39,476 nucleotides of DNA. Source: Gammaproteobacteria bacterium. GTDB taxonomy: Bacteria > Pseudomonadota > Gammaproteobacteria > Pseudomonadales > Azotimanducaceae. Below, in pieces: positions 29,309 to 38,366 of the stretch (position 1 is its first letter; each line of letters starts with the position of its first letter). The stretch covers positions 1-39,476 of the forward strand of contig JAFIFL010000008.1 of assembly GCA_020832055.1 (NCBI GenBank), given 5' to 3'. Made by a program: the position numbers and the translations under genes. Under the pieces are notes generated by a model. The model saw only the letters and a list, made by a program, of their open reading frames with translations, was not told where the DNA came from and searched no databases.

Positions 29309-30715
29309 ATGAATGGCCCACCCATCCATGCGCGCCTGGTCTGCGCCGTGCTCACAGGGGTGCTCTCAGGAGTGCTGCTGCTTACTGCCGGCGGAGTCAC
29401 AGCCCGCGATTGGCAGCTGCCCCGAGAGCTGCGTGATGAGGTTGCTGCCCTCGCAGAAGAACAGCAGCAGTTCATCGTCAGCGGCGCAGCGCTGAAGTTC
29501 CTGCCGTCACGGCAGCTCGAACACGAGATCGCAAGGCGCGATGCAGAGTCCCTGCAGGCCTTCATCACCGACCTGATGCACGTGGCCACGGAGATGGGCT
29601 ACGACCCCGAGCGCGACATGGGAGCCATACCGCTCAACCTGGACTCGAGGAACTTCAACGGCCAGACGATCCCGACGCCGGCACCGCTGCGCAAGCTCGA
29701 GCGCGAGCCCGGTCCGTTCGGCGTTCACCGCTATATCTTCCCGGCCAGCGGCGTGCCGACCTTTGCCGGGGCCAAGGTCGCCATCTTTCCCGAAGACCTC
29801 GTGGCCGGCGGCGTCGATGTAGCCATCATCGGTATTCCCAACGACATGGGCAGTGGCCGACGCAACGCCAAACACGGCCCCCGCGTGATGCGCGCGCTCA
29901 ACACCATTGCCACGCCCGACGTCCAGACCCTGCTCAATCCCCTCGATGTGCTGTCGGTGGTGGACTATGGCGACTTCTCCGTCGACAACATGAGTACGGC
30001 GCGCACCATTGGCCACGTCACAGACATGGTGGCGGAAACCGCTGCCACCGGCGCCGTTCCGATGCTGGTCGGAGGGGATACCTCCATGCTTTATCCCGGC
30101 GTGAAAGGCGTTGCCCGGCACCACGGCAACGGCAGCTTCGGGCTGGTGCACTTCAGCGCCCACCCCGATGTGCATCGCACCGCAGTGCACACCATCTCCG
30201 ATACCCAAGCCATCTTCCTGCTGCTCAGTGAAGGCATCGTCGAAGGCAGGTCGATGGTTCAGGTCGGCCTGCGCGGCAAGGACGTGACACCGGACAACCT
30301 GCAATGGCTTCGCAGTCAGGGCGTTCGCTATCACACCATGGCCTCGGTCGAGAACCGCGGCTACGACCGGGTACTCCAGCGCGTAATCAGGGAAGTGAAT
30401 CGGGGTCCGGACAAGGTGTTCGTGTCCATTGATGTCAGCGTCATCGAGCCCAGTGAAATGGTGGCGGCTGGACGGATTGCCACCAATGGATTGCGGATCG
30501 GCGAGGTCACCAGGGCGGTCCGCCATATCTGCAATGCCAAGGAGATCGTCGGCTTCGAGATCACGGACCTGGCCCCCATGCTGGACTACTCACGACTGTC
30601 CGCACTGAACGCCAACGCCATTCTCAATGCCTGTCTCGTGGGCATGGCCGCGCGCGCGGCCGGCCACAGGCCCAACTACGTCCATCCGCTGGCGCTCGAT
30701 CATGGCCAGGGCTGA
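29309..30715 (+). CDS. Secreted ureohydrolase (agmatinase/arginase) homologue with degenerate metal site
   Basis: The 468-residue protein has a Sec signal peptide (hydrophobic core residues ~10-29, likely cleavage after VTA32). An N-terminal helical region of ~130 residues follows, then the ureohydrolase alpha/beta core from ~150. The framework motifs are preserved (VVDYGDFSVDNMST, TGAVPMLVGGD, YHTMASVENRG), but three of six metal ligands are replaced: GGDHS is GGDTS (Thr258), DAHxD is SAHPD (Ser283; His285 and Asp287 kept), and DxD is DVS (Asp375 kept, Ser377). DP after the last motif is EP. A normal di-Mn or di-Ni site therefore cannot form. The next gene is a paralogue with an intact site 55 bases downstream. 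Likely a pseudoenzyme partner or regulator; altered chemistry is not excluded. Confidence 0.85.
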   Translation: MNGPPIHARLVCAVLTGVLSGVLLLTAGGVTARDWQLPRELRDEVAALAEEQQQFIVSGAALKFLPSRQLEHEIARRDAESLQAFITDLMHVATEMGYDPERDMGAIPLNLDSRNFNGQTIPTPAPLRKLEREPGPFGVHRYIFPASGVPTFAGAKVAIFPEDLVAGGVDVAIIGIPNDMGSGRRNAKHGPRVMRALNTIATPDVQTLLNPLDVLSVVDYGDFSVDNMSTARTIGHVTDMVAETAATGAVPMLVGGDTSMLYPGVKGVARHHGNGSFGLVHFSAHPDVHRTAVHTISDTQAIFLLLSEGIVEGRSMVQVGLRGKDVTPDNLQWLRSQGVRYHTMASVENRGYDRVLQRVIREVNRGPDKVFVSIDVSVIEPSEMVAAGRIATNGLRIGEVTRAVRHICNAKEIVGFEITDLAPMLDYSRLSALNANAILNACLVGMAARAAGHRPNYVHPLALDHGQG

Positions 30716-30770
30716 AGCCGAAGTCTCATCTGCCGCCAACGCGCCGACCCGAGTCCCTGGAGGTTCTGTC

Positions 30771-32483
30771 ATGCAAGCCACGTTCACGCCCCACCCGCTC
30801 CGGGGAGCCGTCGCGCTGGGACTCTCGATGGTACTCGGTTTCGCGGCCATGGTGCCGGTCGCTGCTGAGGAGGCGCCCGCCGCTGCCGAAGAGGTTCCCG
30901 TTGAGGACAGCGCGGACACTGCCGAGGCGCCCACCGTCTTCGAGGTACCCGACACGCCCGAGCACGTCGTCGGTACGAACCCCTACCCCTTCGACACGGT
31001 CGATCCGCGGGAGAAAGAGCGTCCGGGCATCGAGCTTCCGGAATCAGTGATGCCGAAGCTCGAGCTGCTGACTGAAGAGGAAATCGAGTTTCTCGCCAGC
31101 GGCGACGCCCGCCGCTTCGCGGGCAATCTCGAGAAGACCGTGGAAGAACTGGAGAAACGGACGCCGGAGGAGATCCAGGCCTGGGTCCAGGCCATGGTGT
31201 ACGTGGTCGAAGGCAGCCGCTACCAGGAAGGGCGGGATGCACCACATATTCCGCTGAATACGGATTCTCCCGAATTCAACGCCTGGCGCATGGTTCGCCC
31301 GCGCTCCATGGATCCACAGCGGGAAGCCGGCCCCATCGACCTCGGGCGCTACAACGGCCGGGGCGGCCCACCCACCTTCGGCGGGTTTCCGTTGGCGCTG
31401 ACCCAGGAGGATCTGATCGCGGGCAAGGTGAATGCGGCGATCGTCGGTGCGCCACTGAATATGGGTTCGGCCTGGCGTGATTCCGGCAGCCAGAGCACCA
31501 CCGAAATGCGCGTACTGGGCGGCATGATGGGCAGCCCCGATCAGTACGTTCAGGTGAATCCCGGCAGCGTATTGAACATCGTCGACTACGGTGACATCGC
31601 CATCGACAACGAAAGCACCGAGCGCTCCATGCAGGAGGTGCGTCGGGTGGTCCGGGAGATCGCGCAGACGGGCGCCGTGCCGCTGATCATCGGTGGCGAT
31701 CACTCCCTGTCCTATCCCAACATCGCCGGTCTGGCCGACGTCTATGGCAAGGAAGAGATCACCGTCATCCACTTCGACGCCCATTACGATGCCTGGTGGG
31801 GATCGCCGCACCTGATCAGCCATGGCGCGCCCGTGTATCGACTCCTGAACGAGGGCCACGTGCGCATCTCCGATTACATTCAGATGGGTCTGCGCTCCAG
31901 TGGACCTGATCGGGCTGCCTTCGAGTGGATGCGCGAGAACGGCATGCGCTACCACACCATGGCGGAGATCGAGCGGCGCGGCTGGGAGGCCGTGCTCGAC
32001 CGGGTGGTGGCCGAGGCCAGCGAGGAAGGCCGGAAGCTGTTCATCTCCTTCGACATCGACGTCGTCGACCCCGCCTACATGCGCGCCACGGGGACCCCGG
32101 TATCCGGCGGACTCAGCATGCGGGAATCCATCACCATCGTGCGCAGACTCTGCGCCGAGTCCAACGTCATCGGGTTCGATCTGATCGAGCTGCATCCGGC
32201 ACTGGACCCCACCTACATGACGACGCTCAACAGCGCCCACATCGTCAAGGCCTGTCTGACAGGTCTGGCCATGAACAAGGAGGGTCTCACTGCGCGGCAC
32301 TATCTGAGTCCGGTGTCGTCCGAGCATGCCATCGACAACTACTACGGCGACCAGCAGTTCTACCTCGACGCGACCGCAGCCGAGGACGCGAAAAAGGAAG
32401 CCGAGAAGGCTGAGCGTGAGGCGAAAGCTGCAAGCGAGGCAGAGGCAGCCGCAGCAGGCAGTGAGGAGGGCGAGGAAGACTGA
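30771..32483 (+). CDS. Secreted ureohydrolase (agmatinase/arginase family), intact active site
   Basis: The 570-residue protein starts at ATG 30771 (GGAGG upstream). It has a signal peptide cleaved after VAA32, an acidic linker, a helical pre-domain (~95-165) and a ureohydrolase core. All six metal ligands are present: His311 (GGDHS), Asp336/His338/Asp340 (HFDAHYDAW) and Asp428/Asp430 (SFDIDVVDP). ATGTPVSGGLSMRES resembles arginase (GTPVxGGL...RE) more than agmatinase (GTPExGGL), so the substrate among arginine, agmatine, guanidino acids or guanidine is open. The last ~40 residues are a charged Lys/Glu/Ala coiled-coil tail. It ends flush against the convergent DUF2306 gene (stops adjacent, TGATCA). 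Confidence 0.92.
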   Translation: MQATFTPHPLRGAVALGLSMVLGFAAMVPVAAEEAPAAAEEVPVEDSADTAEAPTVFEVPDTPEHVVGTNPYPFDTVDPREKERPGIELPESVMPKLELLTEEEIEFLASGDARRFAGNLEKTVEELEKRTPEEIQAWVQAMVYVVEGSRYQEGRDAPHIPLNTDSPEFNAWRMVRPRSMDPQREAGPIDLGRYNGRGGPPTFGGFPLALTQEDLIAGKVNAAIVGAPLNMGSAWRDSGSQSTTEMRVLGGMMGSPDQYVQVNPGSVLNIVDYGDIAIDNESTERSMQEVRRVVREIAQTGAVPLIIGGDHSLSYPNIAGLADVYGKEEITVIHFDAHYDAWWGSPHLISHGAPVYRLLNEGHVRISDYIQMGLRSSGPDRAAFEWMRENGMRYHTMAEIERRGWEAVLDRVVAEASEEGRKLFISFDIDVVDPAYMRATGTPVSGGLSMRESITIVRRLCAESNVIGFDLIELHPALDPTYMTTLNSAHIVKACLTGLAMNKEGLTARHYLSPVSSEHAIDNYYGDQQFYLDATAAEDAKKEAEKAEREAKAASEAEAAAAGSEEGEED

Positions 32484-36548: not shown

Positions 36549-38366
36549 TCAGCGCAGTTCGAAGCCGTCGAGTTCGCCCTGATCGCGCCATTGCTGCAGC
36601 AGGGCGTTGAAGGCGTTGATGCCGAGACCATAGGTCTGGCCGCCGAGGCCACCGGAGGCATTGTCGAGTTCGCCTTCGTTGTTGTAGTAGCCGGGGGTAC
36701 AGGCTTCGAGGAAGTCGCGATTGTAGACGGCCACCCGCTTGATCTCCTCCACCCAGGCCGCTTCCGCTTCGGGCGTGACCTCCGCGACCTTCGCGCCACG
36801 TTTGTTCACCTCATCGATGATGTAGCTGATGTGCTGGGCCTGCTCGTCGAACATGGACGTCATGTTCACCGACAGCCCGTTCTGGGAGATGCCGACGAAG
36901 AACCAGTTCGGGAAGCCGTGGCTGGAAAAGCCGTGCAGGGTGCGCAGGCCACCCGCCCAATGATCGAACAGCGACTCACCGTCGCGGCCGATGATGTCGA
37001 AGCCGATGCGCCGTTTGGGTGACGTGGTGATTTCGAAGCCGGTGGCGAAGATGATGCAGTCCACTTCGTACTCGACGCCGTTGGCGACCACGGCGTTGGC
37101 GGTGATGCGCTCCACGCCATGGGCGTCGCTGACATCGATCAGGTGCACATTGGGGCGGTTGAAGGTGGGCAGGTACTCGTCGTTGAAGCAGGGGCGCTTG
37201 CAGAACTGGCGGTACCAGGGCTTCAGTGCTTCCGCGATTTGCGCGTCGCTGACGGCCGCATCCACCCGGGAGCGAATGCTGTTCATTTTTTGGAAGTCGG
37301 CCAACTCCGCCATGGCCGCGAAGGTTCCCAGATCCTGAGGCGCTTCGCCGGCCTGGATCATCAGCGAGCGGATGTTGTGGAAGATGTCGGTCCAGCCATC
37401 GTCCACGAGATCCTCTTCCACCGGCTGCCCCATGACTACGGCGTTGAAGTTCTCCCGCCGCTGGCGCTGCCAGCCGGGTTCCAGTGACTCGACCCACTCC
37501 GGGTCCGTCGGCTTGTTGCCGCGCAGATCGACGGAACTCGGAGTGCGCTGAAAGACATAGAGCTCTTTGGCGGCAGCACCCACGTGGGGTACACACTGGA
37601 TGGCGGTGGCGCCGGTACCGATGACGGCGACCCGCTTGTCGGCCAGGCCCGTGAGATGGCCGTTGTGATCGCCGCCGGTGTAGGCGTAATCCCAGCGGCT
37701 GGTGTGGAAGGTGTGACCTGCGAAATCCTCGATGCCGGGAATGCCCGGCAGTTTGGGCCGGCTCGCCGGGCCCGTGGCCTGAATCACGAAGCGGGCGCGA
37801 ATGTCATCCCCGCGATCGGTGGCGACCCGCCAGCGGGCGAGCTCTTCATCCCAACGGATGGCCTCTACCCGGGTCTGGAAGCGGGCGATGTCGTAGAGAT
37901 TGAAGGTTTCTCCGATGCGCCGGGAGTGCTCGTAGATCTCCGGCGCGAAGGCGTACTTCTCCTTCGGCATGTAGCCGAGTTCCTCCAGCAGCGGCAGGTA
38001 GCAGTAGGCGTCGATGTCGCACTGGGCACCGGGATAGCGGTTCCAGTACCAGGTGCCGCCGAAGTCACCGCCGGCCTCCAGAATGCGGACATCCGTGATG
38101 CCCCGCTGCTTGAGCCGCGCCGCGGCCAGCATGCCGCTGAAACCGCCGCCGATGATGACCACTTCCACCTCCTCCTGGAGCGGATCGCGTTCGACGCGCT
38201 CCGCGTAGGGATCCTCGATGAAGTGGGCAAAGCGGCCTTCCACCTCAACGTACTGCTCCTCGCCATCCGGACGCAGGCGCCGATCGCGCTCCTGGCGGTA
38301 CTTCTCACGCAGGGCGTCGGGATCGAAACCGAGGTTGTCGTACTTAAGCGGCAAGGTTCTGGCCAT
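36549..38366 (-). CDS. Baeyer-Villiger-type flavin monooxygenase
   Basis: The 605-residue protein has an FAD motif GGGFSG (73-78), the GGTWYWNRYPGAQCDI segment (103-118), the Baeyer-Villiger fingerprint FAGHTFHTSRWD (215-226), a second Rossmann motif VIGTGATAIQ for NADPH (~248-257) and FATGFE. It would insert oxygen next to a ketone, or oxidise a heteroatom. The ~65-residue N-terminal extension before the FAD domain is found in a long-form subgroup and is absent from cyclohexanone monooxygenases. The substrate is unknown. Regulation may involve a duplicated element at its promoter (38421-38448). Confidence 0.92.
   Translation of the reverse strand: MARTLPLKYDNLGFDPDALREKYRQERDRRLRPDGEEQYVEVEGRFAHFIEDPYAERVERDPLQEEVEVVIIGGGFSGMLAAARLKQRGITDVRILEAGGDFGGTWYWNRYPGAQCDIDAYCYLPLLEELGYMPKEKYAFAPEIYEHSRRIGETFNLYDIARFQTRVEAIRWDEELARWRVATDRGDDIRARFVIQATGPASRPKLPGIPGIEDFAGHTFHTSRWDYAYTGGDHNGHLTGLADKRVAVIGTGATAIQCVPHVGAAAKELYVFQRTPSSVDLRGNKPTDPEWVESLEPGWQRQRRENFNAVVMGQPVEEDLVDDGWTDIFHNIRSLMIQAGEAPQDLGTFAAMAELADFQKMNSIRSRVDAAVSDAQIAEALKPWYRQFCKRPCFNDEYLPTFNRPNVHLIDVSDAHGVERITANAVVANGVEYEVDCIIFATGFEITTSPKRRIGFDIIGRDGESLFDHWAGGLRTLHGFSSHGFPNWFFVGISQNGLSVNMTSMFDEQAQHISYIIDEVNKRGAKVAEVTPEAEAAWVEEIKRVAVYNRDFLEACTPGYYNNEGELDNASGGLGGQTYGLGINAFNALLQQWRDQGELDGFELR

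Follow-up and report, generated by a model that had tools for sequence, protein, structure and literature searches.

Why would a bacterium keep, directly beside a ureohydrolase gene with a complete metal site, a paralog that has lost several of its metal ligands? The question is raised by two genes on a 39,476-nucleotide contig (JAFIFL010000008.1 of assembly GCA_020832055.1; the whole stretch is hereafter the window) from a gammaproteobacterium assigned to the Azotimanducaceae. The upstream gene encodes the degenerate copy, termed D, and the downstream gene encodes the intact copy, termed I. With somewhat more confidence than doubt, and judging from sequence comparisons, we propose that D and I form an exported ureohydrolase that feeds urea uptake, with I as the catalytic subunit and D as the noncatalytic one. 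The recurrence of the pattern in 46 non-redundant D proteins of one clade is far beyond chance.

A first-pass annotation of the window had described two adjacent ureohydrolase paralogs on the same strand, separated by 55 bp, and this description holds. Both open reading frames (ORFs) are on the + strand, the gap covers positions 30716-30770 if I starts at 30771, and both products match the Pfam family Arginase (PF00491; D, 165.5 bits, 2.4e-48; I, 229.4 bits, 7.9e-68; curated cut-off, 22 bits). The proteins are 36% identical across 434 amino acids, including a helical pre-domain whose presence in both had likewise been recognized. AlphaFold models (predicted local distance difference test score, pLDDT, 83 for D and 80 for I) place five helices in this pre-domain in both proteins, with a ureohydrolase fold behind it. 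As predicted models, D superimposes on 1gq6_A with a Z of 39.2 and a root mean square deviation (rmsd) of 1.9 over 290 aligned residues, and I superimposes on 8ryi_E with a Z of 38.1 and an rmsd of 2.8 over 329 aligned residues.

The signal peptides that the annotation assigned to both proteins stand as hydrophobic, export-type N termini, which were judged by eye and with a crude hydrophobicity script. Applied across the family, the script called the N terminus signal-like for 57 of the 62 D proteins and for 64 of the 71 I proteins. At its C terminus (window 32382-32483), I carries a charged tail of ~33 residues rich in Ala, Glu, and Lys, and D is without such a tail.

The six metal ligands of I are H311, D336, H338, D340, D428, and D430. 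They are accompanied by H351 and E473, which we take to be the equivalents of arginase His141 and Glu277; alignments with the PDB matches agree. The six ligand positions of D hold T258, S283, H285, D287, D375, and S377, exactly as the annotation had reported for the Thr and the two Ser residues. In addition, D carries D298 in place of the catalytic His, D420 in place of the Glu277 equivalent, and AGR (with R389) where I has TGTP. The set taken for catalytic competence, namely the six ligands plus the catalytic His, is complete in I and incomplete in D. The annotation called the metal site of D dismantled, and ligands have indeed been lost, but the active site has also been remodeled, with five clade-wide replacements.

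Pairing and remodeling across bacteria

The genome that contains the window encodes three tandem pairs: that of the window (contig C163), one on contig C360 with I first, and one on contig C21, also I then D, whose D runs off the contig end. Their D copies have TSHDDS, HGHNDS, and ASHNDS at the ligand positions, and Ser at the last ligand is common to all. Three shorter arginase-family matches occur on contigs C158, C39, and C326. The window-type pair was present in all six genomes of the genus that were searched (its own and five others).

Two short peptide patterns, derived by aligning 12 D proteins, were used to scan the genomes of 84,980 species, and this identified 46 loci. Being seeded on D, this survey passes over divergent D proteins that do not carry the patterns and gives no reading of how often I occurs without D. 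The loci come from Pseudohongiella, Woeseiaceae, Glaciecola, Alteromonas, Paraglaciecola, Xanthomonadaceae, Sphingomonadales, Novosphingobium, Gluconacetobacter, and several unclassified gammaproteobacterial metagenome-assembled genomes (MAGs), so that the spread of the family covers Gamma- and Alphaproteobacteria plus one MAG labeled Marinimicrobia. The I-D pair of this last record (Candidatus Marinimicrobia, L090:2424-5248) groups with alphaproteobacterial ones, as a result of either horizontal transfer or mis-binning. Genome samples in which only the top three or four candidates per genome were scored gave one positive among 369 genomes of the class (the window's own genome; E 1e-75), two among 398 of the phylum (its own genome and G1034; E 1e-75), and 11 among 390 of the order (E 1e-50, with I as query).

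At the 46 loci, 51 I and 48 D genes are complete and six copies are partial. A complete I adjoins on the same strand in 45 of the 48 complete D genes, and the other three are at contig ends (L063, where I is cut off, L076, and L087); this bears out, as far as contig ends permit, the idea raised with the annotation that the degenerate copy always lies beside an intact one. D comes first in window-type loci and I comes first in the others, several of which are I-D-I-D arrays. Among 27 I-then-D neighbors, 13 have a 4-bp overlap between the stop codon of I and the start codon of D, a count that uses the nearest in-frame start and therefore favors small gaps.

A tree of 101 non-redundant proteins was built by a quick method with 14 active-site columns masked, and several long branches were flagged. 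All 46 non-redundant D proteins form one clade with support of 99 in the Shimodaira-Hasegawa-like approximate likelihood ratio test (SH-aLRT), and the paired I proteins form a 43-row clade with SH-aLRT 96. A separate six-row I clade (SH-aLRT 99) holds the I proteins of genomes G017, G241, and G353, one from L098, and two from an Alteromonas array. The two classes were defined by their ligand and catalytic positions, and L028 is the sole row of the 101 that fits neither. This distant relative (L028:1501-2826, contig C157 of genome G001) keeps all six ligands, with the catalytic His column occupied by Ala; the same contig carries a HupE/UreJ_2 gene ~1.3 kb away.

Five columns are at least 93% conserved in both I and D yet differ between them: 351 (H to D), 430 (D to S), 440 (T to A), 442 (T to R), and 473 (E to D), in P0002 numbering. 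Because columns 351 and 430 are part of the class definition they are not independent, but the D clade is still recovered with them masked. Other ligand columns vary among D proteins (311 T/H/A/F/N, 336 S/G/N/D, 338 H/N, and 340 D/N/E/G/R), whereas column 428 is Asp in all 46. Judging from this alignment, ligand loss in D took several routes, because Phe, Asn, or Arg occupies different ligand positions among its members. Second D copies of L046, L079, and L081 include some with Phe at the first ligand position and others with Asn or Arg at other ligands. The pattern suggests an order of events in which the catalytic His, the last Asp ligand, the Glu, and the loop were replaced in all or nearly all D, and the other ligands were lost variably.

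Distances among D proteins track those among their I partners. For 48 non-redundant pairs the correlation is r=0.95 (the largest of 2000 permutations reached 0.21), with r=0.84 for the window type and r=0.96 for the other type; part of this agreement reflects a common species history. Pairwise ratios of nonsynonymous to synonymous substitution rates (dN/dS; Nei-Gojobori, some dS above 1) are 0.077-0.179 for D and 0.072-0.142 for I of the window type (15 comparisons each), 0.065-0.094 and 0.051-0.082 for the C360 type (three each), and 0.134 for D (one comparison) and 0.056-0.097 for I (three) of the C21 type. The annotation had named purifying selection on D as a point to check, and D ratios of 0.065-0.18 confirm it and reject simple decay. 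Because dN/dS is low and residues are fixed across the clade, D is, by these sequence measures, a maintained and remodeled pseudoenzyme rather than a decaying copy.

Gene neighborhoods and the proposed function

Neighboring genes were clustered, and representatives were named with curated Pfam and NCBIfam models. In relatives, a recurring operon combines a TonB-dependent receptor, the I/D array, a PpiC-type isomerase (PF13145), HupE/UreJ_2 (PF13795), UrtA (TIGR03407), UrtB (TIGR03409), UrtC (TIGR03408), and two ATP-binding genes, of which UrtE was named by TIGR03410 and UrtD by position and similarity. In Pseudohongiella (G225) a co-directional island begins with a TonB receptor and an I-D-I array and continues through PpiC, HupE, and UrtABCDE into urease; its ureC was named by TIGR01792, and similarity or inspection by eye identified the remaining urease genes. 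UrtA is present in the stretch covered in nine of the 23 loci L070-L092 (L071, L072, L074, L075, L077, L078, L079, L081, and L086). The Gluconacetobacter pairs (L084 and L085) are followed by urease genes, and a Novosphingobium RL4 megaplasmid (L098) carries the pair, a TonB receptor, PpiC-HupE, urt, and urease inside 37 kb. Among 13 genomes with family members, urtA was found in 10, ureC in 12, and HupE_UreJ_2 in all 13, versus one, three, and none in 14 control genomes given the same searches. The window's genome carries urtA and ureC on one contig, C32.

This operon points to the acquisition of nitrogen from guanidino compounds through the release of urea before the inner membrane is crossed. 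We infer a complex, a metal, a substrate, and a catalytic activity as follows. I would carry a binuclear metal site and free urea by hydrolyzing a periplasmic guanidino compound. D, with catalysis lost but fold and pre-domain kept, would be needed for the assembly or stability of I or for shaping its active site, a role that we liken to that of MefH-beta/MetCb in metformin hydrolase. Urea would enter through UrtABCDE and then be split by urease, and the TonB-dependent receptor, which is encoded first in the fullest loci, presumably brings the substrate in. The likeliest mechanism is the one that the first-pass annotation had imagined, a mixed D-I oligomer with a prozyme-like partner, for which metformin hydrolase offers a direct precedent. 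A HupE/UreJ-like gene adjoins the pair in some loci and is no more than a hint at a possible nickel dependence.

Several observations weigh against this proposal. Some I proteins have no adjacent D (in G241, G353, and G017, one in L098, and two in L088), and the separate six-row clade of intact I includes members of this kind. Because G241, G353, and G017 each have a lone I, an I-type enzyme apparently can work without an adjacent D, and in G241 and G353 the genes for PpiC and UrtABCDE come after this lone I. L083 pairs an intact I with a D that breaks off mid-gene. At the 23 window-type loci (L047-L069, several of whose stretches end at contig ends), UrtA was found near the pair in none, and PpiC-HupE lies beside it in only two (L056 and L061). 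No transport genes were found among the genes that flank the window's pair. Moreover, the PpiC-HupE cassette may be generic, because HupE_UreJ_2 matches occur in all 13 family genomes, often in several copies. The annotation's suggestion of extracytoplasmic processing of guanidino compounds is supported by the TonB receptor, urea ATP-binding cassette (ABC) transporter, and urease genes of relatives, but not by a urt link at the window itself. Because urt was not found in the stretches covered, and PpiC-HupE is rare, at window-type loci, the function of the window's own pair would have to be read from its paralogs.

Other roles for D can be set against that of a noncatalytic subunit. D might be a binding protein whose rebuilt pocket (S377, D298, R389, D420, and the retained D375) holds a guanidino compound or urea uncleaved and hands it over to I, the TonB receptor, or UrtA. 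Throughout the D clade, new residues are fixed or almost fixed in five pocket columns, a lipobox occurs in some D (e.g., L041, L066, L071, and L088), and a TonB receptor adjoins in several loci. Yet the lipobox-like motif, even with a loose pattern, is found in only 10 of 62 D, and the remaining metal positions differ from clade to clade, a drift that a tight binding site might not tolerate; we regard this role as doubtful. Equally tentative is its extension to a periplasmic relay from the TonB receptor through D and I to UrtA, in which the D pocket would be a new nonmetal site for guanidino compounds or urea, and guanidino compounds would be captured and their nitrogen stripped as urea outside the cytoplasm. 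If true, the relay would be a nitrogen-scavenging route with a pseudoenzyme as receptor or carrier. A general lipoprotein anchor was not adopted as the main mechanism for D, given how few D proteins were flagged for a lipobox.

A prozyme-like regulator, in which I is basally active alone and D activates or represses it on a signal, seems less probable than a binding protein. Co-inheritance and overlapping start and stop codons suggest fixed co-expression, and I relatives without an adjacent D exist. Trypanosomatid prozymes are catalytically dead paralogs that partner an active enzyme, but they belong to different enzyme families, are eukaryotic, and have had their activation measured. For D, no evidence of a signal or of an allosteric site was found. 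Furthermore, as passages of PMC11271267 describe for the metformin hydrolase MetCaCb, either subunit alone is inactive and MetCb raises the solubility of MetCa. It is much harder to credit D with a catalysis of its own, whether metal-independent or dependent on one metal. Five of the six ligands persist in some alphaproteobacterial D (HDHDDS in L084, L085, and L098), but among the 46 non-redundant D the catalytic His is replaced in all, the Glu is replaced in all (45 Asp and one Gly), and the gammaproteobacterial D of the tree lack at least two ligands. Least credible of all is the view that D is a duplicated gene in the course of pseudogenization. The truncated D of L083 and a 99-codon D remnant in L092 do show loss, but dN/dS is far under 1 and near that of I, the pocket residues are clade-wide in a single clade, and the intact partner is gone from L092 as well; decay was rejected on the first two grounds. 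In L083 (9386-10195), unrelated downstream sequence begins where D breaks, which could reflect a deletion or an assembly error, and the flanks of L092 (6555-6857, a UBA6173 MAG) are as in L054, with both genes lost.

Relation to known ureohydrolases

Guanidinobutyrase, guanidinopropionase, and agmatinase are cytoplasmic single-gene enzymes, and the guanidine hydrolase GdmH and the Nitrospira guanidinase are single-gene enzymes that are not known to have a degenerate partner. The former group (3NIO, 3NIP, 4DZ4, and 7LBA) shares the ureohydrolase fold and metal motifs, at 24-30% identity to I in Foldseek alignments. GdmH (7ESR) and the Nitrospira guanidinase (9FEK) share their fold with both D and I, with sequence matches that begin behind the pre-domain, and 7ESR is the best PDB sequence match for each protein.

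The first-pass annotation had taken ureohydrolases to be normally cytoplasmic homo-oligomers, but heteromeric ones such as metformin hydrolase are already known. In this cytoplasmic enzyme the alpha subunit has a nickel pair, and the beta subunit has lost four or five of six ligands, is metal-free, and is indispensable (passages of PMC11271267 and PMC11399263). Pseudoenzyme-enzyme pairs are represented by metformin and dimethylguanidine hydrolases, and one more tandem arrangement is mentioned (PMC11399263). Metformin hydrolase (MefH/MetCaCb/MfmAB) and dimethylguanidine hydrolase DmgH (8RYI, 8X3G, and 8SNF) are likewise encoded by tandem genes, one intact and one ligand-poor. Enzymes of the metformin hydrolase type are built as alpha2-beta4 complexes, and each subunit is inactive by itself. 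Identity between subunits is ~33-34% in these hydrolases, compared with 36% for D and I.

By sequence, D and I are ureohydrolase-superfamily members that resemble metformin hydrolase in design and differ from it in export, pre-domain, arrays, and context. D and I are predicted to be exported, whereas the term "signal peptide" is absent from the text of PMC11399263 on metformin hydrolase. MefH-type chains (348-378 amino acids) align to D and I only behind the pre-domain. Unlike metformin hydrolase, D and I occur in arrays and, in relatives, near a TonB receptor, urt, and urease. The D profile scores 162 bits against guanidine hydrolase versus 77-102 against metformin hydrolase chains, and the I profile scores 193 versus 103-110. 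The D/I pair likely arose independently of metformin hydrolase, to judge from such comparisons; MefH was left out of the tree. Weighing against an independent origin, MefH-beta reaches 101.9 bits with the D profile and MefH-alpha only 77-80, a more marked difference than with the I profile (110 versus 103-106). The D/I family would then add an apparent independent origin of a pseudoenzyme-enzyme ureohydrolase pair in a different compartment. Among the open-access papers listed, at the level of titles and abstract openings, no account of exported D/I-type pairs was found, and these papers gave no substrate lead for D/I.

Features and flanking genes of the window

Coordinates of the D and I genes and of their features in the window
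Feature	Position	Strand	Basis
D, predicted exported ureohydrolase pseudoenzyme, 468 aa	29309..30715	+	ORF, Pfam match, D clade in tree
I, predicted exported ureohydrolase, 570 aa, complete set of six metal ligands	30771..32483	+	ORF, Pfam match, alignment
D predicted export signal, ~residues 1-33	29309..29407	+	hydrophobic N terminus ending ...GGVTA, by eye
I predicted export signal, ~residues 1-32	30771..30866	+	by eye
D helical pre-domain, residues 39-96, five predicted helices	29423..29596	+	AlphaFold model
I helical pre-domain, residues 91-149, five predicted helices	31041..31217	+	AlphaFold model
D T258 replacing metal ligand His	30080..30082	+	alignment
D S283 replacing metal ligand Asp	30155..30157	+	alignment
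D D298 replacing catalytic His; Asp in 46/46 non-redundant D	30200..30202	+	alignment
D S377 replacing last metal ligand Asp; Ser in 46/46 non-redundant D	30437..30439	+	alignment
D R389 of AGR motif (TGTP in I); Arg in 44/46 D	30473..30475	+	alignment
D D420 replacing Glu277 equivalent; Asp in 45/46 D	30566..30568	+	alignment
I span with six metal ligands, catalytic His351, and Glu473	31701..32189	+	alignment

A local operon link was sought for the window's own pair and none was found. Upstream lie genes for a glutathione peroxidase and a SnoaL-like protein, and downstream lie a membrane protein gene, with a weak match to DUF2306 below the cut-off, and a flavin adenine dinucleotide (FAD)-oxidase gene. 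Farther along, on the - strand (window 36549-38366), is a flavin monooxygenase that resembles pentalenolactone D synthase (764 bits, under the cut-off of 1100) and that we presume to be an enzyme of the Baeyer-Villiger type.

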